Below, piece after piece: positions 5,269-58,819 of a DNA stretch of 64,000 nucleotides. Position 1 is the stretch's first letter; every line of letters starts with the position of its first letter. Source of the DNA: a virus. The translations under genes and the position numbers were made by a program. The stretch covers positions 1-64,000 of the IMG/VR virus record IMGVR_UViG_3300042261_001312. The stretch is one strand, 5' to 3'. A model generated the notes under the pieces. That model ran no database searches and was not told the origin of the DNA. It worked only from the letters and a program-made list of their open reading frames with translations.

Positions 5269-5288
5269 GATTTTTAATTTAAGTTTGT

Positions 5289-5359
5289 AGTCGGAGCAGG
5301 ACTCGAACCTGCATACATAGCCACGTTCGCCATGCGCTAACCAATTACTATATCCGACT
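5289..5359 (-). tRNA. tRNA-like, anticodon loop atypical
   Basis: Perfect acceptor AGTCGGA/TCCGACT and T-arm GCAGG-TTCGAGT-CCTGC, anticodon stem ATGGC/GCTAT. The loop is GAACGTG with A instead of U at position 33 (formal anticodon ACG) and the D-stem pairs poorly. Possibly degenerate. Confidence 0.5.
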
Positions 5360-5429
5360 AAGAGTCCGTGCTTTCCGAACTGTCAAATGCTTCATAACAC
5401 TTAGGCATTTTAGCATTAACTAACCACGT

Positions 5430-5604
5430 AGTCAGAACAGGACTCGAACCTGTAAGTCACATCTATTCCTACTTTGCTCCCAAGTACCTATCATATGTAA
5501 TTAGTATTAAACCATCTATCTTACATAATCAATATCGAAGCATTTGGTTTTTTATTACTGCCACTCACTCGTAGAGTGTGCGTCTGCCATTCCGCCATCC
5601 GACT
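5430..5604 (-). tRNA. interrupted tRNA-like element (175 nt)
   Basis: Acceptor AGTCGGA/TCTGACT (one G-T), D-stem GCG/CGC and T-arm ACAGG-TTCGAGT-CCTGT frame an interior about 90 nt too long. After the D-arm comes hairpin CACTC-TACGAGT-GAGTG, then A/T-rich insert. The 5' half resembles tRNA-Leu. True anticodon not resolved. Confidence 0.45.
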
Positions 5605-5670
5605 GTGTTCTACTTTTGATTTTTAATTTAGTAATCGCAGAATCAAAAAGTAGTAAAATAACTGCGCTGT

Positions 5671-5795
5671 GATTGGAACAGGAATCGAACCTGTAACCTT
5701 GGCATGTTGCACCACCTGTGCCTCCTACGGGAATTGTGGAATCGAACCACTGCCCACCTCTGCCACCAATGAGTTACCTATTACTCCATCCAACC
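5671..5795 (-). tRNA. tRNA-like with about 61-nt anticodon loop
   Basis: Acceptor GGTTGGA/TCCAATC, D-stem GAGT/ACTC, anticodon stem TTGGT/GCCAA, T-arm ACAGG-TTCGATT-CCTGT all form, but the anticodon loop is about 61 nt instead of 7 and contains a second T-arm-like GTGG-TTCGATT-CCAC. Promoter 5801-5831 ends at the 5' end of the element. Confidence 0.5.
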
Positions 5796-33956: not shown

Positions 33957-33976
33957 GATTTATAAATTTTTATTTG

Positions 33977-34047
33977 TGATTCTTGAGGGGGTCGAACCCT
34001 CGAATGCTGTTTTAGAGACAGGTGTTTTACCACTAAACTAAAGAACC
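33977..34047 (-). tRNA. suppressor tRNA with CTA anticodon (reads UAG)
   Basis: Acceptor GGTTCTT/AAGAATC, D GTTT/AAAC, anticodon arm CCTGT-CTCTAAA-ACAGC (position 27-43 mismatched), T-arm GAGGG-TTCGACC-CCCTC. Loop has U33, A37 and anticodon CTA. One base away from the CTCTGAA loop of tRNA-Gln(CTG) at 62986. Confidence 0.8.
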
Positions 34048-37789: not shown

Positions 37790-37861
37790 GGTCTCGTATT
37801 GGAGTCGAACCAATGTCTCCCTGCTTGTCGCAAGGCACACTATCCTCTATGCTAACGAAAT
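37790..37861 (-). tRNA. tRNA-like, loop CGACAAG (formal ACA)
   Basis: All arms form (D GCAT/GTGT, anticodon stem CCTTG/CAGGG, T-arm ATTGG/CCAAT, acceptor with a mismatch at the end) but position 33 is G. Anticodon assignment doubtful. Confidence 0.5.
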
Positions 37862-47706: not shown

Positions 47707-48798
47707 TTATGCAATATATTCGTATCCATCTTTGAATGGTTTACTATATACTGGTCTTATTTCTTTCCAAATTATTTCATCATATGGTTTTTTGTCATAT
47801 AATTTGAATAATATGGAACGATATTTTGATTTTATTGCTTCCATTGCAAATTTTTTACGTTCAACGATGTCATTGACATGATAAATTCTTATAAAATCTA
47901 TCAAAGCAAGTCTTTCAATTTCATTATATTCAATTTGCAAGTGCTTGATTGTTCTTTTCAACCAGTCGTAAAATTCGTCAGGTACTCTATCGAGTAATAT
48001 GTTGAAATCATAGTTATTTTTCAAGTGTTCCCATACAGTTAAGTTTGAAACATTTGTTAAAATACCGTGCAACCTAACATATTCGCTGAATTTAACCTTA
48101 ACTCTCATACCACTTGAAAACTTAACAACAAAACCTTCCATGTTATCTTCTTCAAGTCTTTTCAATTCCATCAAATTTTTGACATTATTCATGTCATATC
48201 TATTTACAATTGTAAAGTACTTGTGATAATTAACAGCCATGTCTCTGTATGTTAATTCCAAACCAGTTTTAGTGTCAATTACTGTAAGCAGTATCAAGTC
48301 ACGCATGTCGCCATAGTTGACAACGATTCTGTTTTCAGGATATATGACTTCAAAAACATATGTGAATAACTTATTTAATTTATCAAAAACATTCGTTTTT
48401 GATATTAGCATTTTTGTTGCTTCAGTCATTTGTTCAGAAATAAATGATCCTCTAGATGCAACAATCCATTTATTAACTGCTTCGTAATGAAACAATAAAA
48501 TCAACGAACCATCCATCTTTTCAAAAACTTCAAAGTCTTGCGACATATCAATTTCTGATGGATCATGTTCTTCATAATTTTTGAACTTAACCATTGGTCT
48601 TGCCAATATGTTACCTTCAGCATCAACAACCATTCCACGACATGAAAGCGTATATTCATCCCAAAATTTCTGTGATTGAGTTTTTGGTGAATAGTTTAAT
48701 ATCCAAATGTCATATTCTGGATGCTTATTTGATACAATAAGATTATTTTCAATGTATTCATTTAATACATTCCAATCAATTTTCTTCAATAATTCCAT
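47707..48798 (-). CDS. rnlA: T4 Rnl1-type RNA ligase (363 aa)
   Basis: Nucleotidyl-lysine Lys94 in FEKMDGSLI (motif I KxDGS), upstream SCRGMVVD, motif III-like FTYVFEVIYPENRIVV, motif IV EGFVVKF and motif V RVKVKFSEY. Length matches T4 RNA ligase 1. The enzyme seals 5'-phosphate to 3'-OH RNA ends and in T4 repairs tRNA cut by host anticodon nucleases. No polynucleotide kinase-phosphatase is in the window, but a cREC domain (60854) and a metallophosphoesterase are. Overlaps the methyltransferase gene by 23 nt. Confidence 0.85.
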   Translation of the reverse strand: MELLKKIDWNVLNEYIENNLIVSNKHPEYDIWILNYSPKTQSQKFWDEYTLSCRGMVVDAEGNILARPMVKFKNYEEHDPSEIDMSQDFEVFEKMDGSLILLFHYEAVNKWIVASRGSFISEQMTEATKMLISKTNVFDKLNKLFTYVFEVIYPENRIVVNYGDMRDLILLTVIDTKTGLELTYRDMAVNYHKYFTIVNRYDMNNVKNLMELKRLEEDNMEGFVVKFSSGMRVKVKFSEYVRLHGILTNVSNLTVWEHLKNNYDFNILLDRVPDEFYDWLKRTIKHLQIEYNEIERLALIDFIRIYHVNDIVERKKFAMEAIKSKYRSILFKLYDKKPYDEIIWKEIRPVYSKPFKDGYEYIA

Positions 48799-49846
48799 CT
48801 CTTTTTACTATATATTGTGATTCATATTTTTTTACAAATAAAAACATTGGTTCATATTTAAACTTTACATCTTTGTTACGTAAATTTACGTTAGATAATG
48901 CTAAATAAAATTTTTTAATCAATTTAAAGCCAACTTTTTCTGCTACAGCAATTGTTTCATTCTCAAGATTGAGATTATTTTTCCCCTGAACGTCTGCAAT
49001 ATTGATAATCATACATCCATCAGGTTTTAAGCCAAAATGACAATTTTCAAATGTTTGAGTTAGAAAACCATCAACCCATTCCTTCTTTGTTGGAAATTTA
49101 ATGTAACTTTGATTACGTTCATCACTATATTTTTCCAAATCGAAATATGGAGGTGAAGTAAAGCATAAATCCAAAGAATTGCGCAGTGGTCGATACTCCT
49201 CACTTCCACAATTCAAAAAACTCCAATTCATTTTAGTTGGAAAATCATTTACAATATTAACCAATCCGTCTAATGTTAATGATGATGGTTCTGTCGCAAT
49301 ATAGGTATCAACACCACTTGCGATTGCACCAAGCAATCTTCCACCCCATCCGCCTGACATATCCCAAACAACACCGTTATTTGCAAACATGTCATAAATG
49401 ACTGCTGCAGCAGTTGGTCTGAAATTTGAAACACCTTGAACTCCAGAATATATCTTCAACATTTTTCTAATTCCCGAATCAGATATATATGTGCCCATTT
49501 TCAATCTTTTACGTATGATCTTTATAAAGATTTCATCATCCATAAATGCTTCATATGGTGTTAATCTGCCATTGCACTTGACGTTGAATGCGTGTGGAAA
49601 ATATGACCAAGCAAGACCTAATCCGTGCATTGATTGTTTAACAACATCATCTTCGAAAAGTTTGCTTCTATCATACTCCATCAATGAATTAAAATCTTTG
49701 ACTCTGATTTCCCTATCCGTTGGATGATACGGGAATCCGTTCTCACGATAATAATCAAATATTTTCGTAGCAAATGCATTCAACTCACTTTCTGACATAT
49801 TTCTCCAGTGGCTTTCATTTACAAATATTTCTTCTTTTCTAATCAT
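48776..49846 (-). CDS. DNA methyltransferase with TSPPY motif (356 aa)
   Basis: SAM motif DMSGGWGGRLLG, catalytic TSPPYFDLEKY and NQSYIKFP match the gene at 30059; N-terminal helical part differs. Likely N4/N6 amino-methyltransferase. Start overlaps the stop of the next upstream gene (ATGA). Two such paralogues 18 kb apart suggest different target sites. Confidence 0.75.
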   Translation of the reverse strand: MIRKEEIFVNESHWRNMSESELNAFATKIFDYYRENGFPYHPTDREIRVKDFNSLMEYDRSKLFEDDVVKQSMHGLGLAWSYFPHAFNVKCNGRLTPYEAFMDDEIFIKIIRKRLKMGTYISDSGIRKMLKIYSGVQGVSNFRPTAAAVIYDMFANNGVVWDMSGGWGGRLLGAIASGVDTYIATEPSSLTLDGLVNIVNDFPTKMNWSFLNCGSEEYRPLRNSLDLCFTSPPYFDLEKYSDERNQSYIKFPTKKEWVDGFLTQTFENCHFGLKPDGCMIINIADVQGKNNLNLENETIAVAEKVGFKLIKKFYLALSNVNLRNKDVKFKYEPMFLFVKKYESQYIVKRDGIIEEN

Positions 49847-50349
49847 TTTGTTGCAAATATTATTCCACGTTTCAATTTTGCATTCGGAAATATTTCCTTA
49901 ACAATTTCGAGATAATCTTTCTGTTTTAAATAATGCTGAAATGTACCAGATTTGGTCACTCCAGAGGCTTTATTTGGATTCATATATGTTGATCGAACAA
50001 ATATATATCCACCATCTTTTAGTGCATCAAAAGCCAATTTAAGCGTGTTTATTTGTATCTCACGTTCTTTAATAACATTTAGCACGTTGAAAATTGTTAC
50101 TGTTTCAACTTTACGTGACATACAAAATTCTAACATAAGTGCATTATGCACTTCGCTCCTATTATACGGATCATATATGCAATTTGTTACACTTTTTTCT
50201 GATAATTTTTCAGACATCAAATCGTATTTTCCGCCACCAATATCAAAATTAACAGTGTTGGCTTTCCACCCAAAATATTTATCAATGATTCCAAAACCTG
50301 CTGGAACTTGTTTCATTGAAGTTTTGGCTGACGTATATTCTTGTTCCAT
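49843..50349 (-). CDS. SAM-methyltransferase-like protein (168 aa)
   Basis: NFDIGGGKYDLMSEKL (motif I), IYDPYNRSEVHN (motif II acidic end), TIFNVLNVIKERE and LKDGGYIFVRSTYMN follow a class I SAM fold. No TSPPY. Family members in phages lie beside DNA methyltransferases. Possible earlier or later start (Met12). Coupled to the methyltransferase. Confidence 0.6.
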   Translation of the reverse strand: MEQEYTSAKTSMKQVPAGFGIIDKYFGWKANTVNFDIGGGKYDLMSEKLSEKSVTNCIYDPYNRSEVHNALMLEFCMSRKVETVTIFNVLNVIKEREIQINTLKLAFDALKDGGYIFVRSTYMNPNKASGVTKSGTFQHYLKQKDYLEIVKEIFPNAKLKRGIIFATK

Positions 50350-50400
50350 ATTATACCGTATTAAGGTACAAATCTACACAGAATTTTAAACAAAAGCAAA

Positions 50401-50408
50401 GTATTTAT
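50401..50408 (+). promoter_or_regulatory. late-type motif GTATTTAT
   Basis: 18 nt before the plus-strand gene at 50427. Confidence 0.55.
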
Positions 50409-50426
50409 GTAAAAATTGTGATAATT

Positions 50427-50858
50427 ATGAAGTTAAATGAAATAATTCAAGAAGAAATGGTAAATGTTCTGAATGAAGCATATTCAATGGAACATGAAAA
50501 TTTCAGATTTCGTCAAAGGGTTAGAGATTCTTGGTTTAATAATTATGAAGGATTCTCAAATGATTATGATACCGATATTACTGAAAGTGATATTATTGTT
50601 AATTGGCATATTATTTTTTGGTTAAATGATTTTGGCGTTGAAAATTTTGTTATTAATGTTGACAGTGTTGAAGGTATTTATAGAGTTCAATTACTTAATA
50701 AACAGACTGATATGACTGAACAAGAAGTAGATAAAGACATTTCAGAAATTGATTGGAAATTTGAAGTTGGTGATGCTGCACTTCAATTAAATGGAAGTCT
50801 TTATGTTACTGGATTGAATTTCGATTTTAAAACTAATGTTTGTAGAGTACAATTTTAA
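50427..50858 (+). CDS. hypothetical protein (143 aa)
   Basis: Start MKLNEIIQEEMVNVLNEAYS chosen from the upstream motif. N-terminal amphipathic helix of the NEIIxEE type as in the next gene, then an acidic strand-rich domain. Not recognised. First of a four-gene plus-strand run. Confidence 0.6.
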   Translation: MKLNEIIQEEMVNVLNEAYSMEHENFRFRQRVRDSWFNNYEGFSNDYDTDITESDIIVNWHIIFWLNDFGVENFVINVDSVEGIYRVQLLNKQTDMTEQEVDKDISEIDWKFEVGDAALQLNGSLYVTGLNFDFKTNVCRVQF

Positions 50859-50862
50859 ATCA

Positions 50863-51690
50863 ATGAGTAAATTAATTGAAATAATCAACGAAGAAATAGT
50901 AAAGTCATTCAGAAATATTGAGTATGATGACGATGATATTATAAATCCAGATGAAATTGATTTGCGTAGTGAGTACAACAAATTAAATGCACAATTATTT
51001 AATGATAGATTACCAGAAGTTCCAATAATGTGGGGTGGTAGAAAAACTGCATTGGGACATGTTACTGCAAATATTAATAAAAGAACTGGCGAAATTATTA
51101 TAAAATCTTTAACAATATCAAACTTCCGTGCATTACCATACAGATCATTTTTAAATGTTTTAGCACATGAAATGATTCATGTTGAATTATTTGATGATGG
51201 ATATTATAATCCAAATGATCACCATGACTATAGATTTATGTCAGAAGCACGTAGAATTAATGGAATGGGTCTTGGACTTAATATTACTAAAAGAAATGAC
51301 GAACCATTAGGTGTTTCGGATGTGGTCAAAGCGAGGACAAAAGGAAAACGAATGATTGCAGTTCTTTTGAATATTGACGGCAAAACATTTGGATGTACAA
51401 CAACAGAAAGTGCATATAATTCTGAATTCGGCAGCATTGTTTACATGTATCAGAATTTTGTTAATCAGGGAAAATACAATACTGTGGAAATAACTGTGAT
51501 TAATTCAGCGAATAGTGAATTATTGAGATTTCCAATGAAAAGAACATTTAGGAGGGGAATTTCATATGTACCAATTTCAAGAGAATTATATGATCAATTG
51601 TTGGGTGACTATGAACTATTCCACAAAAAAATAGTAAAAGGCGCATTATACGAAGAAGATAGTGAATGGGAAGAAATAATAGTAAGTTAA
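50863..51690 (+). CDS. SprT-like metallopeptidase (275 aa)
   Basis: Begins MSKLIEIINEEIVKSFRNIE, a leader helix like that of its neighbour. Residues 37-145 match SprT: LNAQLFNDRLPEVPIMWGG, then zinc-binding HEMIH at 102-106 with a third ligand likely in HHDYRF. C-terminal half unassigned, strand-rich. SprT-like proteases in cells cut DNA-protein cross-links (Spartan); a phage role is unproven. Confidence 0.7.
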   Translation: MSKLIEIINEEIVKSFRNIEYDDDDIINPDEIDLRSEYNKLNAQLFNDRLPEVPIMWGGRKTALGHVTANINKRTGEIIIKSLTISNFRALPYRSFLNVLAHEMIHVELFDDGYYNPNDHHDYRFMSEARRINGMGLGLNITKRNDEPLGVSDVVKARTKGKRMIAVLLNIDGKTFGCTTTESAYNSEFGSIVYMYQNFVNQGKYNTVEITVINSANSELLRFPMKRTFRRGISYVPISRELYDQLLGDYELFHKKIVKGALYEEDSEWEEIIVS

Positions 51691-51702
51691 AAAATATAGA
51701 AA

Positions 51703-52398
51703 ATGAAAGATAGTAAACAAAGACTTTTTGAAGTCATGCAAAGAGTAGACCCCAACTTTAAACCCAAAATGGTTGAAATAACACCTAAAATGGCTGGGGT
51801 TGCAATAAATCGTAATTTAGGGGGTGATTTGAGAACTAAAAGAATATCAAAAGATGCTATTACAAGTTTATTCAGTAAATATATTGGCAAAAGTATTCCA
51901 TTTTATCTCAAGGTTAGTGATACTGATAAACCAACAAAATATGAATTGGTTGAAGTCACATTTAATCGAGACCCTTCAATGCGTACCGATTATTCTTCTC
52001 TTGATGAAGGTGGAGATTATGTATTAAAATTATATTTCTATAATGATGCAGGCACTGATGATGACGCACCGTATGCAGAAAATAAGAAAAATATTGTATT
52101 GTCGTATGTTTTAATAAATGATAAATATGACTCACCAGAAAGGAGTTTCTATTATAATCAATTTGCAATCAATTTATTACTATATGCAGCAAACGTTATA
52201 AGAAAAGCATACTTCAGTGCATTTCCAATACGTACTGAACTTGGAGATGGTAGTTATGGCATCAACACTAGCGTAACAGAAGAAAAAATGAAATCTAATT
52301 TGACTAAACAAAGTTTTAGACAATTCCCGTTTAGTTCAAGTGATATGGAAAATCGAAGTAACATTAAACCAGAACCAACTGAAGATGGTTACTTCTAA
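51703..52398 (+). CDS. hypothetical protein with KQRLFEV leader (231 aa)
   Basis: First 22 residues MKDSKQRLFEVMQRVDPNFK are shared with two otherwise unrelated genes at 59227 and 59364. The rest is alpha/beta (SIPFYLKVSDTDKPTKYELV) with a polar tail. Not recognised; possibly a virion-packaged protein if the leader is a targeting peptide. Confidence 0.6.
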   Translation: MKDSKQRLFEVMQRVDPNFKPKMVEITPKMAGVAINRNLGGDLRTKRISKDAITSLFSKYIGKSIPFYLKVSDTDKPTKYELVEVTFNRDPSMRTDYSSLDEGGDYVLKLYFYNDAGTDDDAPYAENKKNIVLSYVLINDKYDSPERSFYYNQFAINLLLYAANVIRKAYFSAFPIRTELGDGSYGINTSVTEEKMKSNLTKQSFRQFPFSSSDMENRSNIKPEPTEDGYF

Positions 52399-52427
52399 AA
52401 ATAATAGTAATTTAAATTAAAATTTGT

Positions 52428-52622
52428 ATGAGAAAATTGTGGGAAAAGGTAAAAGCGTGGTTCTTGAAAAATTGGCTTATGGTAGTAAATTATTTAGTAA
52501 TACTTATTGCATATTCTAATGTACAAGGAAAAGACGGTGTTGTATTAGCAGAAGTTCTTTTAGGACTTTGGATATTTACATCAGTTGCATATGGCGGATA
52601 TAAATGGTTTAAGAAACAATAA
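52428..52622 (+). CDS. small two-pass membrane protein (64 aa)
   Basis: Basic amphipathic start (MRKLWEKVKAWFLKNW), membrane spans around 17-28 and 43-58, basic end YKWFKKQ. Followed by a strong terminator. Holin-like shape, but size and position alone are not evidence. Confidence 0.6.
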   Translation: MRKLWEKVKAWFLKNWLMVVNYLVILIAYSNVQGKDGVVLAEVLLGLWIFTSVAYGGYKWFKKQ

Positions 52623-52625
52623 ATA

Positions 52626-52653
52626 AAAAAACCCTGAATTTCTTCAGGGTTTT
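52626..52653 (+). terminator. terminator of plus-strand run
   Basis: ACCCTGAA/TTCAGGGT, four-base loop, TTTTTTG. Confidence 0.8.
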
Positions 52654-52656
52654 TTG

Positions 52657-52727
52657 TTGCGACAATGGAAGTCGAATCCATATCAACTCCTTATGAGAGA
52701 GGTGTCCTACCTTTGGACGATATCGCA
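52657..52727 (-). tRNA. tRNA with CAT anticodon (Met or lysidine Ile)
   Basis: Acceptor TGCGATA/TGTCGCA, D GTCC/GGAC, loop CTCATAA, T-arm ATGGA/TCCAT. First acceptor pair T-A, so not a standard initiator. Confidence 0.8.
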
Positions 52728-52729
52728 GT

Positions 52730-53017
52730 TTAAAATTTTACTTTAAAATGTGAAAATTCATTGTGTTTAATTACTTCTTCCAAAACCAACGATTTTTCCA
52801 TCCATTGTTTTCTATTTTTAGAAACAAGTTTCCAATTAGGAAATCTAACCTCATTTCTAATAAAACCGCCATACCATTTACCATCATAATTTTCATTGCT
52901 GTGATATTTACAATATGAACAATGAATACCATTTTTTCTGTGCGTCAAATATGACTTGTATGCACGATTATAATCACCACGATTAGTGGTATTTTCAACA
53001 ATTTTTTTCGACTTCAT
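52730..53017 (-). CDS. conserved phage protein (95 aa)
   Basis: IHCSYCKYHSNENYDGKWYG resembles a small Cys/His motif I have seen in phage proteins of unknown function (CxYCxxH), followed by PNWKLVSKNRKQWM. Possible zinc site. Basic. Confidence 0.5.
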   Translation of the reverse strand: MKSKKIVENTTNRGDYNRAYKSYLTHRKNGIHCSYCKYHSNENYDGKWYGGFIRNEVRFPNWKLVSKNRKQWMEKSLVLEEVIKHNEFSHFKVKF

Positions 53018-53072
53018 TTCTTATAAGCCGCATTAGAGCGAACTTATAAGACTTTAAATTTTTCTTTCATAA

Positions 53073-53555
53073 TTATCTACCTAACTTTAATTGTATATGT
53101 TTAACAAATAATGCATCTGCCACTTCTTTTGACAACGGTGTTGATCCAACAGCCGACCCCATCAATTTTGATCTTTCATCATGCGGAATTGAAAATGCTG
53201 CATGTAAAATTTCATGAAAAACCACTTGTCTTAAATAACCTTGATACATTCCACTCAAACAATCTTCGGGAATCCAAATCTCTTTAGCACCCATTGTTGC
53301 AGTCCCTAAAGAATGTTTACGAATAACTTCGTTTGGGTCTTTATCAACAACTCTTGCCTGAATTCTAGGCAAATCAACGCCAATGCTTGCAGCCAATCTT
53401 TTGGCTTCATAAATTACATCAATGACTTTCCTTCTTTTTTCATATACTTCTGGATTCATTTCTTTTTTAATGTAACCAGCAGGTGTATATTCTTTACGTC
53501 TTGGTCTATCACCGTAATCACGTCTTGGTCTGTTTCCGTATTCTTCAATTGCCAT
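53073..53555 (-). CDS. zinc metallopeptidase-like protein (160 aa)
   Basis: Basic Arg-rich N-terminus (RPRRDYGDRPRRKEY), then IYEAKRLAASIGVDLPRIQA and HEILH at 114-118 (FHEILHAAFSIPHDER), a SprT/ImmA-type HExxH. C-terminal VADALFVKHIQLKLG. Late-type motif 15 nt upstream. A second HExxH protein beside the SprT-like one. Confidence 0.65.
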   Translation of the reverse strand: MAIEEYGNRPRRDYGDRPRRKEYTPAGYIKKEMNPEVYEKRRKVIDVIYEAKRLAASIGVDLPRIQARVVDKDPNEVIRKHSLGTATMGAKEIWIPEDCLSGMYQGYLRQVVFHEILHAAFSIPHDERSKLMGSAVGSTPLSKEVADALFVKHIQLKLGR

Positions 53556-53570
53556 GTTAAATGTTTTAAG

Positions 53571-53578
53571 ATAAATAC
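53571..53578 (-). promoter_or_regulatory. late-type motif GTATTTAT
   Basis: 15 nt before the metallopeptidase-like gene. Confidence 0.5.
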
Positions 53579-53588
53579 ACTAATGGTT

Positions 53589-53711
53589 TTATTTAGGTGA
53601 TTTTTTCTTTATGATTTTTTTAACACCAGCGTTTTTTCTTCGTGGATCATTAATCTTTAATGGTTTTCCGCAACCACAATCATCTTCTTTACTATTCTTT
53701 GTATTTGCCAT
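53589..53711 (-). CDS. small basic protein with CxCG motif (40 aa)
   Basis: MANTKNSKEDDCGCGKPLKI then Arg/Lys-rich tail KKIIKKKSPK. The DCGCGK motif is also at the C-terminus of the 118-aa protein at 31542. Overlaps the upstream gene by 20 nt. Confidence 0.5.
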   Translation of the reverse strand: MANTKNSKEDDCGCGKPLKINDPRRKNAGVKKIIKKKSPK

Positions 53712-53889
53712 GACTAAGCCTTATTTCATCATTTTTATTTACTTTGCACAAACCCATGCCATCGTGCTCATAAAGTCTGCCTTCTGCTTTTAATTCACGA
53801 ATACGTTCAGGGTCTTCAACTTTTGTATATCCATACCCATCATCTTCGTAATATCCCTTATCAAGCCAATTATGAAATAATAAACTCAT
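53692..53889 (-). CDS. hypothetical protein (65 aa)
   Basis: MSLLFHNWLDKGYYEDDGYG with acidic, Tyr-rich body. Not recognised. Directly downstream of the interrupted tRNA-Leu. Confidence 0.5.
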   Translation of the reverse strand: MSLLFHNWLDKGYYEDDGYGYTKVEDPERIRELKAEGRLYEHDGMGLCKVNKNDEIRLSHGKYKE

Positions 53890-53909
53890 ATATCATCAAT
53901 AATAATTTG

Positions 53910-54016
53910 TAGCGGGGAAGGGATTTGAACCCTCACGGTCATTACTGACCACCAGATTTGGGTTACTTTGTATGAAGTACTAAGTCTGGGATGTCTACCA
54001 ATTTCATCACCCCGCC
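53910..54016 (-). tRNA. tRNA-Leu(TAG) with 21-nt insertion in the anticodon loop
   Basis: Class II frame intact: acceptor GGCGGGG/CCCCGCT, D ATG/CAT, anticodon stem CCAGA/TCTGG, variable stem TGGTCA/TGACC, T-arm GAGGG-TTCAAAT-CCCTT. The loop (53957-53984) is 28 nt: CTTAG, an insert with hairpin TACTT/AAGTA, then ...AA. Confidence 0.75.
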
Positions 54017-54021
54017 ATTTT

Positions 54022-54453
54022 TTATATCGCCAAAACCAATCTCAAATCTTCTTTGTTATAGATATGAACTACTGTACCTTGACCAAATATCATTTGAAAA
54101 TAATAGCCATTGAAATCACAGACTTCATTTGGAAATGAACAATCTAATTTTGGTACTTTAACAGATTCACCATTTCTAAAAACATAGTCAATAATAAATT
54201 GCATTTTGTTATTTGGATATGGCATAAATCCATTATGATAGCAATTAGTGATATAATTATCATCATGCTCTAAAATAACCCGATACATTAATTTATCGAA
54301 ATCATTATGTTTCAGCCATTTCCCAAATCGTTTAAAACGATTTAATTTAATATCTTCTTCTTTATTTTTAGACCCAAAATATTCTTTACCTTCTTCAGAT
54401 TCTGCCCATTCTTTGAGTTCTTTAATAATAATATCTATGTTAATTTTACTCAT
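54022..54453 (-). CDS. hypothetical protein (143 aa)
   Basis: Not recognised. Helical N-terminal half, then a strand-rich part with FGQGTVVHIYNKEDLRLVL. Four nt after the next upstream gene. Confidence 0.55.
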   Translation of the reverse strand: MSKINIDIIIKELKEWAESEEGKEYFGSKNKEEDIKLNRFKRFGKWLKHNDFDKLMYRVILEHDDNYITNCYHNGFMPYPNNKMQFIIDYVFRNGESVKVPKLDCSFPNEVCDFNGYYFQMIFGQGTVVHIYNKEDLRLVLAI

Positions 54454-54456
54454 TTA

Positions 54457-54810
54457 TCAATTATTAATATGTCCAACAATAGTTCTTTTCATTCCATTTT
54501 TATCAACAACAACTGCGGTTGAGTCACTTCCAATGAAATCAATTCTACATTTTCTCACGGATTGAAATGCAAACCAATTATTGTCGTCGATTTCAATGTA
54601 ATCACCGACTGAGTACAATTCTCCTCTAAATTCAAATTTTCTTTCCACTTGGTTCTTTTCTAAAACTCCATTTGTCAAATCCGAATTGTTCGATTTTGTA
54701 CTTGTCAGCAACTTCGACAATTTCTTTTTCACCTTTTCCCAAAACGCCACCCAAAAACATTTCAATCTCCTGAAATGCTTGGAATGCATCAAATATTTTA
54801 TAAAATTCAT
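54457..54810 (-). CDS. hypothetical small-barrel protein, start uncertain
   Basis: The credible part is EFRGELYSVGDYIEIDDNNW to KRTIVGHINN (a small barrel). Upstream of it the frame overlaps the 233-aa gene. An ATG exists at 54810, but GTG near 54654, next to that gene's TGA, would give a tidier start. TGA stop. Confidence 0.45.
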   Translation of the reverse strand: MNFIKYLMHSKHFRRLKCFWVAFWEKVKKKLSKLLTSTKSNNSDLTNGVLEKNQVERKFEFRGELYSVGDYIEIDDNNWFAFQSVRKCRIDFIGSDSTAVVVDKNGMKRTIVGHINN

Positions 54811-55333
54811 ATTCTTTCAATATTGGATTGAGATAAAATTTACCATTACGTCTACTATTATAATCATAATCATCATAAACAAAAACAGGCACATTAAATT
54901 CTCTAAAAATTTCAATCGGATTATAATTCATGATATAATTATAGTCTTCAGTTAAATTGGAGTGCCATCCTTCATTTTGAACAATTTCTCGAACCACATC
55001 AAAATCATATGTTGTTAAGACATTATCAACTTCACCGAATTTATGTGGTGTATAAAATTGAAATCCAACATAAAGTTTTCCACAGAATCCAACAATAAAA
55101 TGTGAATATGTTTCATATATTGAACGATATTCTTTCTTGAAAACATTACCTCCCAATCTCGTAAAAGCATTTCTGATTTTGTTTTCAGTACGATTGTCTT
55201 TTAATCTGAACATTGAAGGAAAATCTTTGCTTTCAACTTCAGTCAATTCACGATTATAAACAAGTGTTTTATCAACACCCATTGTACCTACAACACCATC
55301 GTAATAATCTTTTTTCTTTGAAATAATTAACAT
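54632..55333 (-). CDS. hypothetical protein (233 aa)
   Basis: Not recognised. Mixed alpha/beta with GNVFKKEYRSIYETYSHFIV and FVYDDYDYNSRRNGKFYL; soluble. Its promoter (55388-55418) is a stray copy of the left-region family and lies inside the 3' end of the next upstream HNH gene. Confidence 0.6.
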   Translation of the reverse strand: MLIISKKKDYYDGVVGTMGVDKTLVYNRELTEVESKDFPSMFRLKDNRTENKIRNAFTRLGGNVFKKEYRSIYETYSHFIVGFCGKLYVGFQFYTPHKFGEVDNVLTTYDFDVVREIVQNEGWHSNLTEDYNYIMNYNPIEIFREFNVPVFVYDDYDYNSRRNGKFYLNPILKEYEFYKIFDAFQAFQEIEMFLGGVLGKGEKEIVEVADKYKIEQFGFDKWSFRKEPSGKKI

Positions 55334-55387
55334 TGTGATTTTAATTTACGGTTTCAAAAATAAAACATTTATTAATAATAAACAAGC

Positions 55388-55418
55388 GTTATACGTAAAT
55401 AATGTTTAAAAGGTTACA
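55388..55418 (-). promoter_or_regulatory. left-region promoter copy outside the left region
   Basis: TGTAACC and CGTATAAC boxes. The TGTAACC box is the coding sequence for the last residues (NNVTF) of the HNH gene at 55406. Confidence 0.6.
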
Positions 55419-56119
55419 TTATTTTTAATCCATTTTCGAATTGTGTTATCACTAACGCCATATTTTTTGCCTGTAGAAACATAACCAATTTCATTAACAT
55501 ACTTTAATAATTCATTCAAATCTGGTCGTACTTTTAATTTACGTAAATTAATGTGGTGACATTTTTTACATGTAGTACTTTCGTTGTTTATAATTGTACC
55601 ACATTTACAAAAATTATGCTTTGAACTCTTTTTAACTTTTTTGACTTTTTTTGAACATTTATTATTTTTACCACCAAATGTTTCTGATTGTGAATGACAA
55701 TTAGGGCATAAAAACTCCAAATTTTGAATTCTATTATCATTATTCACACCATTTTTGTGTTCTAATTGTAATGATAATTTTTTGCCGTTCCAATGACCAT
55801 TATTACCACATTTACATTTATATTCTAGCAACCCTTCACTTACCAAACGATTTTTTAATGTTGCTCTATTTGTATATGTGGAATTTTCAATTAGAATACT
55901 TTCAATTGGAATTCTATTTTTATTTTTCCCACTCTCGCCATAATAATGGTATTTAGGAATTTCAATGTTTCTTTTTTTTAATTGTGATTTAATTGTTGCA
56001 TATCCACCACTACCATTACTACAATAGCCAAATGTTATTAATGCTTCTCTTAATGATTTACTTTGTGACAATACACAAATAATTTCCTTGTTACTGTACT
56101 TCTCAATTTTACTGCTCAT
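55406..56119 (-). CDS. HNH endonuclease with DNA-binding tail (237 aa)
   Basis: YKCKCGNNGHWNGKKLSLQL-EHKNG, then LEFLCPNCHSQSETFGG: HNH core with zinc ligands; second Cys pair region (FCKCG...CKKCH). C-terminal YGVSDNTIRKWIKNN is a helix-turn-helix. Late-type motif 15 nt upstream. Mobile endonuclease next to tRNA-Trp. Confidence 0.75.
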   Translation of the reverse strand: MSSKIEKYSNKEIICVLSQSKSLREALITFGYCSNGSGGYATIKSQLKKRNIEIPKYHYYGESGKNKNRIPIESILIENSTYTNRATLKNRLVSEGLLEYKCKCGNNGHWNGKKLSLQLEHKNGVNNDNRIQNLEFLCPNCHSQSETFGGKNNKCSKKVKKVKKSSKHNFCKCGTIINNESTTCKKCHHINLRKLKVRPDLNELLKYVNEIGYVSTGKKYGVSDNTIRKWIKNNVTF

Positions 56120-56134
56120 AATAATCTTTTTTAT

Positions 56135-56142
56135 ATAAATAC
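56135..56142 (-). promoter_or_regulatory. late-type motif GTATTTAT
   Basis: 15 nt before the HNH gene start. Confidence 0.5.
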
Positions 56143-56184
56143 GATATCGAACAGCAAAAGTATATTTACAGCATAACTAATTTG

Positions 56185-56256
56185 CACGTCTGGAAGTAAT
56201 CGAAACCTCATCAACGGGTTTGGAATCCGCTATCTTAACCATTAGACGACAGACGT
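56185..56256 (-). tRNA. tRNA-Trp(CCA)
   Basis: Acceptor ACGTCTG/CAGACGT, D GTCT/AGAT, anticodon arm GCGGA-TTCCAAA-CCCGT, discriminator G as in bacterial Trp. Confidence 0.85.
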
Positions 56257-56284
56257 GTATGTTGTCTGGAATCTCCAGACGTTT

Positions 56285-56755
56285 TTAAAATAATGCTTTA
56301 CCTAAAACATAGCATATTGAACCAAACGCAACCAATTCAAGCCACCAAGTTTTATTTTTAATGTTGGTTAATAATATAATCAAACTCATAATGATAAAAA
56401 ATGCATTCACATAATACATTTTAAAATCAAATGCGATTGATAACTGACTGAATATAACTCCAGCAATTGCGCTGACTTCGTGCATTGTTTTATCATTGTC
56501 TTTGAATGCTGCTGCTGCCCCGACAAAACAAATTCCACCTGTTGCTAAAAACATTAGAAAATTATCAGTCAAATCAATACCAACAATCATCGCTGGAAGC
56601 GCAAAACCCCAACAAAATAATGTGAACAAAAAATTAATGTTCTTCGGTAATACATAATAACTATCCGAAATTGATGGCAATACACCATACTTATTCCAAA
56701 TAAATCCAACATATCCTGCAAATACTGCAAGCATAATAAAATAAAGTGCAATCAT
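56285..56755 (-). CDS. polytopic membrane protein (156 aa)
   Basis: Five hydrophobic segments (about 1-20, 42-60, 64-82, 94-108, 112-130 and a weak last one), short loops. Not recognised; late-type motif 16 nt upstream. Confidence 0.6.
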   Translation of the reverse strand: MIALYFIMLAVFAGYVGFIWNKYGVLPSISDSYYVLPKNINFLFTLFCWGFALPAMIVGIDLTDNFLMFLATGGICFVGAAAAFKDNDKTMHEVSAIAGVIFSQLSIAFDFKMYYVNAFFIIMSLIILLTNIKNKTWWLELVAFGSICYVLGKALF

Positions 56756-56771
56756 AATTTATATTTTTTCA

Positions 56772-56779
56772 ATAAATAC
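56772..56779 (-). promoter_or_regulatory. late-type motif GTATTTAT
   Basis: 16 nt before the membrane protein start. Confidence 0.5.
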
Positions 56780-56803
56780 TGATGTCTGGAGATTCCAGAA
56801 ATG

Positions 56804-56876
56804 TATCCCGTCTCAGATTCGAACTGAGAAACTTGGGTTTTGAATCCAATACGGTTGCCAATTACGTCAACGGGAC
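56804..56876 (-). tRNA. tRNA with CAA anticodon (Leu), short variable loop
   Basis: Acceptor GTCCCGT/ACGGGAT, D ACG/CGT, anticodon stem TTGG/CCAA with A-C at the end, loop TTCAAAA, T-arm CTCAG/CTGAG, 4-nt variable loop. If the register is one base earlier the anticodon would read TCA. Confidence 0.65.
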
Positions 56877-56881
56877 ATATG

Positions 56882-56956
56882 TGGAATCGAAGGGCATCGA
56901 ACCCTCACGTCTTCTGAGTGCAAATCAGATGTTTTAGCCAATTAAACTACGACCCC
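56882..56956 (-). tRNA. tRNA-Ala(TGC)
   Basis: Acceptor GGGGTCG/CGATTCC, D GTTT/AAAC, anticodon arm TCTGA-TTTGCAC-TCAGA, T-arm GAGGG/CCCTT. Confidence 0.85.
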
Positions 56957-56968
56957 ATGTTAATTTTG

Positions 56969-57041
56969 TACTCTCGGTGAGATTCGAACTCACAACATTT
57001 TCATTCTAAGTGAAACGACTCTGCCGTTGGTCTACGAGAGC
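56969..57041 (-). tRNA. tRNA with TAG anticodon (Leu), short variable loop
   Basis: Acceptor GCTCTCG/CGAGAGT, D GAC/GTC, anticodon arm TTTCA-CTTAGAA-TGAAA, 5-nt variable loop, T-arm GTGAG/CTCAC. Confidence 0.8.
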
Positions 57042-57047
57042 ATATTG

Positions 57048-57120
57048 TACACTCGGTGAGATTCGAACCCACACTGGACAGTTTCTTAGACTGACGACTC
57101 TACCGTTGGTCTACGAGTGC
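57048..57120 (-). tRNA. tRNA with AAG anticodon (Leu), short variable loop
   Basis: Near-copy of the neighbour: acceptor GCACTCG/CGAGTGT, D GAC/GTC, loop CTAAGAA, T-loop TTCGAAT. Confidence 0.75.
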
Positions 57121-57126
57121 ATATTG

Positions 57127-57200
57127 TGACTCAAGTCGGACTCGAACCGACACTGTATTGCTTTTAAAACAATTGTCTCCTGCCGTTGGACTACTGAGCC
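57127..57200 (-). tRNA. tRNA with TAA anticodon (Leu), short variable loop
   Basis: Acceptor GGCTCAG/TTGAGTC, D GTC/GAC, anticodon arm ATTGT-TTTAAAA-GCAAT, T-arm GTCGG/CCGAC. Confidence 0.75.
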
Positions 57201-57245
57201 ATAATTTATAGGCGAATTAACCGATATTATACATTTATAGGCGAA

Positions 57246-57761
57246 TTAACCGATATAATTCTTATATTTCCTTAAATATATATTTCTTTTAGTTTCTTTT
57301 ATATTATTAATACCACCTTTATTTGTAATTTGTTGTGAATGACAATTAGGACAAATTAATCTAAGATTATCTGGCATACAATTATCTGAATTTCCATCAA
57401 TATGGTCAACTTCTAATGTTAACGGCTTGTCATTCCATTCATTTCCACATCCACATTCAACACAATTTTCGCCATGTAATTTAATCAATATTTTTCGTAA
57501 TGTGACATTCTGATATACTTTACCAGCATAAAACTTAGTCAATGTCTTATTTTCGTATTGAAAATTATTATAACATTTTATGTCACAAAATCTATTAATA
57601 TTTTTCTCTAAAATATTTCCACAATACAAACAATTTTTTATTTCTTTGTTTTTTTTCGGATAAATTTTGTTATTATATTTAGTCGCACAACTTTTATTAC
57701 AAAATTTATTATTTTGATTATTTAAATCATTACCACATTCTAAGCATTTTTTCGAATTCAT
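57246..57761 (-). CDS. HNH homing endonuclease (171 aa)
   Basis: Start MNSKKCLECGNDLNNQNNKF (57761). Two zinc ribbons (CLECG, CLYCG), CVECGCGNEW and an HNH core VDHIDGNSDNCMPDNLRLIC-PNCHSQ. Smaller relative of the genes at 34454 and 36211 without their helix-turn-helix. Sits directly beside the Leu-anticodon tRNA group. Confidence 0.8.
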   Translation of the reverse strand: MNSKKCLECGNDLNNQNNKFCNKSCATKYNNKIYPKKNKEIKNCLYCGNILEKNINRFCDIKCYNNFQYENKTLTKFYAGKVYQNVTLRKILIKLHGENCVECGCGNEWNDKPLTLEVDHIDGNSDNCMPDNLRLICPNCHSQQITNKGGINNIKETKRNIYLRKYKNYIG

Positions 57762-57829
57762 GATTATTAATTTTTTTATAAATACTCGATAATTCGAAAT
57801 ATGCAAACATTCTGAAGAAAAAATATTGT

Positions 57830-57900
57830 GGAAGATAACAGAATCGAACTGTTTCCATGTGCGTGTAGAACACAGACGCTACCATTACATCAATCTTCCT
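57830..57900 (-). tRNA. tRNA-Val(TAC), C33
   Basis: Acceptor GGAAGAT/ATCTTCC, D ATGT/GCGT, anticodon arm TGTGT-TCTACAC-GCACA, with C at 33. A shifted register would read CTA but fits the arm lengths worse. Confidence 0.7.
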
Positions 57901-57906
57901 TATTGT

Positions 57907-57977
57907 ATTCGGTACGGGGTTCAAACCCGTGTCTTCTGATAGAAAGTCAGACGTATTATCACTTTACCAACCGAACA
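57907..57977 (-). tRNA. tRNA-Glu(TTC)
   Basis: Acceptor GTTCGGT/ACCGAAT, anticodon arm TCTGA-CTTTCTA-TCAGA, T-arm ACGGG-TTTGAAC-CCCGT. Confidence 0.85.
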
Positions 57978-58006
57978 TTTTATCTCATATTGTTTATGAG
58001 ATTTGA

Positions 58007-58654
58007 TTATATTTTTCTCCCAAGAATCCAACCATCACATATATATTTATTTAATTCAACCTTCTTTATTTTTTTATTTATATTATCTTTAAAAATCCAG
58101 CAAGTTCCAAATTGTGAATTTTCACTTCCAGTAAATCTATTTTTCTTTTTTTCACTCATCTTCTTTTTGGCTTCTTCAGTATGTGTTTTTCCCGCAAATG
58201 TATTATAGTTATATTTTCCCAATTTATGGTTATTAGTTACTTGTTGCTTTAAGTTCTCTTTTGCTTTAGTTCTAAAATCACCATTATTTTTCCATCTTTC
58301 CTTACAATATATTGAAGATGCTTCTCTTATTTTTTTCAACGATTCGTCAGACAATCCACGTAATCCACCGCTTCCACCCACTTTTAAATTCATGCAATTT
58401 TCTTTAGCAATTTCGTTCAAATTTACAATTTCTTTTTCTCTGTTAATCAGTTCAGTTTTACTAGATAGAAATTCAATAATTTCAACCTTATGATTTTCCT
58501 TACCATGTTTATTTATTGAATATCTTAATCTTTTTCCCGAACCCATATAACCGTCTTTTAAATCATTGGTAGAATGCATTCCATAATAATATTTCCCATT
58601 TAATAAATTTGTTGTTTTATAAATGAAGTGATACTTTTTTTCTTTTCTTGCCAT
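58007..58654 (-). CDS. GIY-YIG homing endonuclease (215 aa)
   Basis: Residues 7-90: YHFIYKTTNLLNGKYYYGMH is the GIY-YIG motif (here HFIYKT..YYYGMH), SKRLRYSINKHG and NREKEIVN the following conserved segments. NUMOD3-like repeats and a basic tail (MSEKKKNRFTG) follow. Next to tRNA-Glu; motif ATAAATGC (one-base variant of the late-type motif) 16 nt upstream. Confidence 0.8.
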   Translation of the reverse strand: MARKEKKYHFIYKTTNLLNGKYYYGMHSTNDLKDGYMGSGKRLRYSINKHGKENHKVEIIEFLSSKTELINREKEIVNLNEIAKENCMNLKVGGSGGLRGLSDESLKKIREASSIYCKERWKNNGDFRTKAKENLKQQVTNNHKLGKYNYNTFAGKTHTEEAKKKMSEKKKNRFTGSENSQFGTCWIFKDNINKKIKKVELNKYICDGWILGRKI

Positions 58655-58706
58655 ATCTGTACTTTTAAATATAAATGCTTAGTAAGTACAAAAACGACCA
58701 CAGGGC

Positions 58707-58777
58707 AGAACGTGGGGGAATCGAACCCCAACCCTTGGTGTGACAGACCAATATACAACCCATTATACGACACGTCC
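58707..58777 (-). tRNA. tRNA-Asp(GTC)
   Basis: Acceptor GGACGTG/CACGTTC, D GTAT/GTAT, anticodon arm TTGGT-CTGTCAC-ACCAA, T-arm TGGGG/CCCCC. Confidence 0.85.
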
Positions 58778-58819
58778 TATTTTATTTCTCAAACATTTCA
58801 AAGAACCTCCCTAACAAAA

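Follow-up and report, generated by a model that had tools for sequence, protein, structure and literature searches.

A 21-nt insert inside the anticodon of a giant-phage tRNA-Leu(UAA), a candidate mini-intron

The introns of archaeal and eukaryotic tRNA genes are marked by a bulge-helix-bulge motif (a 4-bp helix with two 3-nt bulges) and by their canonical position at 37/38. Group I introns are recognised by a core of roughly 200 nt or more, by a terminal G at the intron 3' end and by the U that ends the 5' exon; the one in cyanobacterial tRNA-Leu(UAA) sits at U34|A35. T4 Rnl1-type ligases are the class of enzyme that reseals cut anticodon loops. We know of no tiny spliced tRNA intron of the kind considered below in bacteria or their viruses. 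Archaeal tRNA introns are typically 12-25 nt long in the group described in PMC4090602, which also documents unusual intron positions in archaea and describes the introns of bacterial tRNA genes as group I self-splicing. Phage tRNAs with anticodon-loop mutations have been proposed to evade anticodon nucleases (PMC10264068).

The window, by which we mean the whole 64,000-nt stretch of DNA analysed here (G+C 31%), belongs to a virus record of 327,676 bases, from a giant phage. On its minus strand, from 54016 down to 53910, lies a complete class II tRNA-Leu whose sole abnormality is an anticodon loop of 28 nt. Folded alone, the 107-nt strand gives exactly a class II tRNA as its minimum-free-energy structure, with an acceptor stem of 7 bp (G-U at 1:72) and a D arm; the anticodon (CCAGA/UCUGG), variable and T arms each have a stem of 5 bp, and the 28-nt loop encloses a further 5-bp hairpin, UACUU-CAUACA-AAGUA. 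This fold bears out the first-pass annotation, which had described a tRNA-Leu with all stems formed and a 21-nt anticodon-loop insert carrying its own hairpin. The parts of the gene are as follows.

53981..54016, minus strand: 5' exon of tRNA-Leu(UAA), nt 1-36, with the acceptor, D arm, 5' side of the anticodon stem and C32 U33 U34 A35 (from the fold and alignment to insert-free orthologues)
53960..53980, minus strand: insert of 21 nt, GTACTTCATACAAAGTAACCC, between A35 and A36 (MAFFT alignment; length and site matched in L152 and L156)
53964..53979, minus strand: insert hairpin, 5-bp stem UACUU/AAGUA with the 6-nt apical loop CAUACA (from the fold; 5/5 pairs kept in three phages)
53910..53959, minus strand: 3' exon of tRNA-Leu(UAA), nt 58-107, with A36 A37 A38, the 3' side of the anticodon stem, the 5-bp variable arm, the T arm, the acceptor and A73 (from the fold and alignment)

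The gene at 53910-54016 was missed by ARAGORN run without introns and by the fast-filter Rfam search. A laxer Rfam search scored it as a tRNA at 40.8 bits (gathering score 29 bits), and ARAGORN run with introns reported it with a 21-nt intron under the label Trp(CCA), which is ruled out by the class II Leu body, the 5-bp variable arm and the Leu(UAA) orthologues that occupy the same slot. None of the listed open reading frames overlaps it. Among the tRNA genes of the window it was unique, in a structural scan, in combining intact outer stems and a perfect anticodon stem with a loop that cannot be drawn at 7 nt and is longer instead. The fold energy of the 107-nt strand lies at z = -2.6 relative to shuffles. 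The insert hairpin alone is weak evidence, because shuffling the insert 1000 times gave 68 sequences that likewise had 5 or more internal pairs. What exceeds chance is the comparative evidence: the insert recurs with identical length and site in two more independent carriers, and its helix covaries.

Relatives were retrieved with the neighbouring RNA ligase as the probe, which gave about 20 distinct related phage loci; the proteins encoded at 54022-54453 and 53073-53555 retrieved none when used in the same way. The tRNA clusters of these relatives are syntenic with the window, in the order Trp, often tmRNA, the Leu(UAA) gene, Leu(CAA) and/or Met, and RNA ligase, and most of them have, in the Leu(UAA) slot, a class II gene that is uninterrupted and whose loop is the normal CUUAAAA. 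Covariance searching of 27 records gave scores of about 73-98 bits for the insert-free orthologues detected in 13 of them; the full inserted form, at more than 120 bits, came up in only four: the window's, L152's, L156 and L174. As L156 and L174 are two assemblies of one phage, the insert occurs at the same site and length in two other phages on three contigs, and the independent carriers found number only three. Pattern scans of IMG/VR for more carriers returned, as real tRNAs, only the three contigs already found. Across 84,980 prokaryote genomes one pattern gave 0 matches and a relaxed pattern gave 10, with no tRNA among them. A candidate split tRNA-Leu in record LR756501 was rejected, the parts being separate neighbouring tRNAs. 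A phage-encoded tmRNA with a long tag peptide lies in the cluster of most relatives (L138 3485-3849, L139 7349-7712, L145 1144-1497, L152 2742-3093 and others); ARAGORN reported no tmRNA in the window.

In 13 records from related phages, the gene at the syntenic position is an ordinary tRNA-Leu(UAA), its loop being CUUAAAA. When 11 insert-free and 2 insert-bearing orthologues were aligned with MAFFT, the extra 21 nt fell at CUUA|GUACUUCAUACAAAGUAACCC|AAA, that is, between A35 and A36, and the exons of L152 proved identical to those of the insert-free L145 at 84/86 positions (2 differences). Based on this alignment site and exon match, the gene is, as far as sequence can tell, a tRNA-Leu(UAA) split inside its anticodon at A35/A36. 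Since the insert lies exactly at CUUA|AAA, its computed removal yields CUUAAAA, as in the insert-free orthologues, and all seven original loop nucleotides (CUUA/AAA) are intact in the three distinct carriers. The apparent UAG anticodon arises because the first base of the insert is G. Two points of the first-pass annotation are therefore revised: it had read the anticodon as TAG, whereas alignment and synteny give UAA and rule out a Leu(TAG) gene, and it had put the insert after the anticodon, whereas the orthologues place it within, at 35/36.

The three inserts read G-UACUU-CAUACA-AAGUA-ACCC in the window, G-UGCUU-UAAUCA-GAGCA-AAUC in L152 and G-UGCUU-CGAAUA-GAGCA-AAUC in L156. All five pairs of the helix are kept in these distinct carriers, with one pair (39:52) changed on both sides, from A-U to G-C, and another, U-A to U-G, on one side. 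Pairing holds in 96.7% of cells of the complete structure, in which 7 pairs are changed on both sides, a covariation greater than in all 500 shuffles and every slid control; coming from three sequences, this support is modest, though consistent. L152 and L156, the two closest carriers, share 95.3% identity over the tRNA (85/86 positions over the exons), against 77.8% over the HNH gene lying 2 nt upstream, where 13/28 four-fold sites have changed, and 54% over the 3' flank. All four insert differences fall in the 6-nt apical loop (P = 0.0025), and the anticodon stem of L156 has one U-C mismatch. In the same two phages, identity is 100% for the nearby Tyr tRNA and 98.6% for the Met tRNA, and only 71% for a neighbouring Leu(CAA). 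Part of the low L152/L156 divergence may stem from a recent transfer of just the tRNA.

Decay, chance and assembly error appear unlikely as explanations of the insert, because the exons match an insert-free relative at 84/86 positions, the tRNA is 95% identical where the gene upstream of it is 78%, the helix shows compensatory change and other phages carry it. A chance hairpin or an assembly error was rejected because of the independent contigs. Nor does the gene look like a tRNA pseudogene: the stems of the window copy are all intact and the carriers are conserved well above their flanking DNA. The earlier suggestion of a dead tRNA is contradicted by this conservation. It had been proposed that insert-free relatives, together with decay elsewhere in this copy, would count against a working gene; such relatives do exist, but the window copy shows no decay and two more carriers were found.

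Taken together, the insert is probably either a tiny spliced intron or the mark of a tRNA retained for a job other than reading codons. The leading explanation, named in the first-pass annotation as one option, is a protein-processed mini-intron whose removal would restore Leu(UAA), possibly with sealing by the phage's T4-Rnl1-type ligase; we put the chances of this at about even. The insert hairpin would have single-stranded flanks, CUUA|G at its 5' and AxYC|AAA at its 3' side, and after transcription a sequence- or structure-specific ribonuclease would excise it. Joining of the two tRNA halves would then give the canonical loop CUUAAAA, reading UUA, the phage's commonest Leu codon (265/619). 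The cutting enzyme may be host-derived or an unrecognised phage protein, and the phage's own RNA ligase, of the T4 Rnl1 type, may do the joining. The uncut RNA could not read UUA; nor would anticodon nucleases find an intact anticodon in it, and this could be the advantage. The broader claim, that a bacterial virus carries a non-self-splicing, protein-removed mini-intron inside an anticodon and joins the halves with its own RNA ligase, and hence that cut-and-seal splicing occurs outside archaea and eukaryotes, is more tentative, and we hold it to be somewhat doubtful.

The genes that bear on these proposals are the following.

47707..48798, minus strand: T4 Rnl1-type RNA ligase, candidate sealing enzyme (Pfam PF09511, phrog_562), linked to the tRNA by neighbourhood only
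54022..54453, minus strand: 143-aa gene with no assigned function whose end lies 6 nt from the tRNA on its 5' side; many relatives have a homologue upstream of this slot
55406..56119, minus strand: HNH endonuclease (phrog_10822), 1.4 kb 5' of the tRNA
57126..57200, minus strand: second tRNA with anticodon TAA, uninterrupted, 75 nt, with a short variable loop, a possible backup (ARAGORN)

The RNA ligase, whose presence in this phage had been noted earlier and is confirmed by both family matches, lies about 5 kb from the interrupted tRNA. It supplies the Rnl1-type member of a T4-type tRNA repair set, but it is not specific to insert carriers, because insert-free relatives have it equally. An AAA_33 kinase of 178 aa at record position 96570-97106 is the only Pnkp-like candidate, and no clear Pnkp was identified.

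Several features set the insert apart from the established intron classes. A group I intron is ruled out by its length of 21 nt, which cannot accommodate the group I core (RF00028) and was rightly judged far too short from the outset, and by a laxer Rfam search of 48500-58800 that gave no group I match; the same method finds one in Prevotella phage Lak-C1. The ends differ as well, the insert finishing in C in the three carriers and the 5' exon in A. As for the archaeal type, a short intron whose removal gives a normal tRNA loop, CUUAAAA, is what we see, but no bulge-helix-bulge motif is present (the fold is a 5/7-nt internal loop with a 5-bp hairpin) and orthologue alignment puts the insert at 35/36 rather than 37/38. 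Because of these two departures we do not file it with the archaeal and eukaryotic protein-spliced introns. The tRNA-intron endonuclease PF01974 (EndA family) was absent from 12 related phage records, among them the 327,676-base record and several fragments, in a search that detected archaeal positives, and RtcB was not found in 11 related phage records, several of them fragments. An archaeal-type intron with the phage's own endonuclease or RtcB was accordingly set aside.

The match in Lak-C1 (L208 625-1223) is an observation in its own right. It scores 41.8 bits, below the 50-bit gathering score, and downstream of it comes AAAATCC..CCTCGCTA, which resembles the 3' exon of a Leu(UAA) gene; this suggests that a tRNA-Leu of this Lak phage carries one or more group I introns.

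The more serious rival to the spliced mini-intron is that the RNA is never spliced. It would then be a non-decoding, foldable and probably chargeable tRNA-Leu that serves as a decoy or sink for an anticodon nuclease, a synthetase or another tRNA-binding factor, with the hairpin keeping the loop compact. What makes this rival serious is that a short uninterrupted TAA tRNA is found in all three carriers (window 57126, L186 5864, L187 7435), so that loss of decoding by the interrupted gene could be tolerated. The conserved tRNA body and insert helix, and the freely varying apical loop, might also be explained by a need for no more than a compact fold, and the phage tRNAs of PMC10264068 offer a precedent for altered anticodon loops proposed to be nuclease-evading. 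Against it, CUUA/AAA would be free to drift in such an RNA, yet all seven nucleotides have stayed intact in three carriers, and a normal loop would make a simpler decoy. We regard an unspliced role as unlikely, with perhaps one chance in a handful of being correct.

Short tRNAs with Leu anticodons are not confined to this backup gene: at window 56803-57200 and in relatives there are tRNAs with TAA, TAG, AAG and CAA anticodons that are only 74-76 nt long and have no class II variable arm.

Alternatively, the insert could be without function, tolerated or decaying in a tRNA gene that is redundant; gene conversion, or HNH homing endonucleases acting at the slot, would have spread it. On the ligase tree, many branches of which are unresolved, the carriers are scattered and need 3 changes, at least 2 of them forced by well-supported branches; such a distribution, the backup TAA tRNA and the single anticodon-stem mismatch in L156 would all fit. 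So would the presence in L152 and L156, 2 nt upstream of the inserted tRNA, of an HNH gene from the PHROG family seen at 55406-56119. However, this gene also adjoins insert-free tRNAs in L162, L138 and L140 (broken in L140) and is absent from the interrupted-tRNA slot of the window itself; it therefore does not track the insert, and as the cause of the insert it is unsupported. HNH endonucleases may account for a mobile slot, but not for the insert. Conservation of the tRNA, moreover, far exceeds that of the HNH gene and flank next to it, and the insert helix is kept with compensatory change, so that a functionless insertion seems improbable to us.

That the expanded loop decodes as written, as a Leu tRNA with anticodon UAG reading CUA, is very improbable indeed: although UAG directly follows C32 U33 and the hairpin begins right after it, its G is an insert base by orthologue alignment, CUA is rare (30/619 Leu codons), an ordinary TAG tRNA lies at window 56968, and a 21-nt insert beside the anticodon is not expected to fit the ribosomal decoding site.

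A number of other unusual tRNA-like elements were encountered in the window and in other viral contigs. Two clusters of tRNA-like genes (window 5288-5359, 5429-5604 and 5670-5795, minus strand; L013 10224-10392, 10512-10630 and 10641-10715) have an intact acceptor stem, D arm and T arm with aberrant or enlarged interiors, two of them with a nested second T arm. They are resembled by a recurrent tRNA-like RNA, AGTCAGG-TGGCGGAATTGGTAGACGC-[about 40-90 variable nt]-ACAGGTTCGAATCCTGT-CCTGACTA, seen in unrelated viral contigs, sometimes several times per contig (L017, L029 with several, L033, L039, L045, L051, L059, L066, L071, L093, L096, L112, L121 and L131); from its sequence it looks like an undescribed class. 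In L152 (13766-13878) and L147 (13124-13236), 113-nt tRNA-like genes in a Tyr/Lys cluster contain a 46-nt interior hairpin, whose stem is CUACGUG/CACGUAG in one and CUGCUUG/CAAGCAG in the other (two compensatory changes) and whose apical part, GGUUUACAACCUUAA, is identical. The tRNA-like genes after the RNA ligase in L138 (11564), L145 (8042) and L146 (11599) have a 19-20-nt anticodon loop with a small hairpin and the common end ATCNNTAA. Long hairpins also lie inside the anticodon loop of tRNA-like genes in L037 (4432-4538), L111 (6617-6730), L018 (2746-2849), L091 (200-289) and L041 (3151-3247). Within the window, 33976-34047 is a tRNA with anticodon CTA, called Pyl by ARAGORN and a possible amber suppressor, and 37790-37861, called Cys(ACA), is a weak tRNA whose anticodon loop is abnormal.

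Our literature search, which covered few subscription journals, returned no description of such an insert. A conserved insert that splits the anticodon, with neither a ribozyme nor an archaeal motif, would imply that infected bacteria have a cut-and-seal pathway not yet described or that a tRNA has an undescribed non-decoding use, and either outcome matters for the debate over what phage tRNA clusters and RNA ligases are for. Among the known systems, the nuclease-evading phage tRNAs share with our gene a phage origin and an altered anticodon loop, but theirs are loop mutations, and insertions or introns go unmentioned in the main text of PMC10264068. T4 RNA ligase 1/Pnkp repair shares the Rnl1-type ligase encoded by the window phage; repair, however, restores an existing tRNA, whereas the insert would need precise excision of 21 nt. 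The group I introns of tRNA-Leu(UAA), in cyanobacteria and, as a lead, in Lak-C1, interrupt the same tRNA species in the same anticodon region, but our phage's site is one nucleotide 3' of the cyanobacterial U34|A35, and the insert has 21 nt in place of about 200 nt or more, no catalytic core, and a final C in place of G. The protein-spliced introns of archaea and eukaryotes are likewise short, lie in the anticodon loop and leave exons that fold as a normal tRNA around them; they differ in their 37/38 position and bulge-helix-bulge, whereas the insert belongs to a bacterial-type phage (tmRNA in relatives) and the 12 phage records searched yielded no splicing endonuclease. Despite these differences, it is the short protein-spliced tRNA intron that the insert, judged by its sequence and fold, would work most like.
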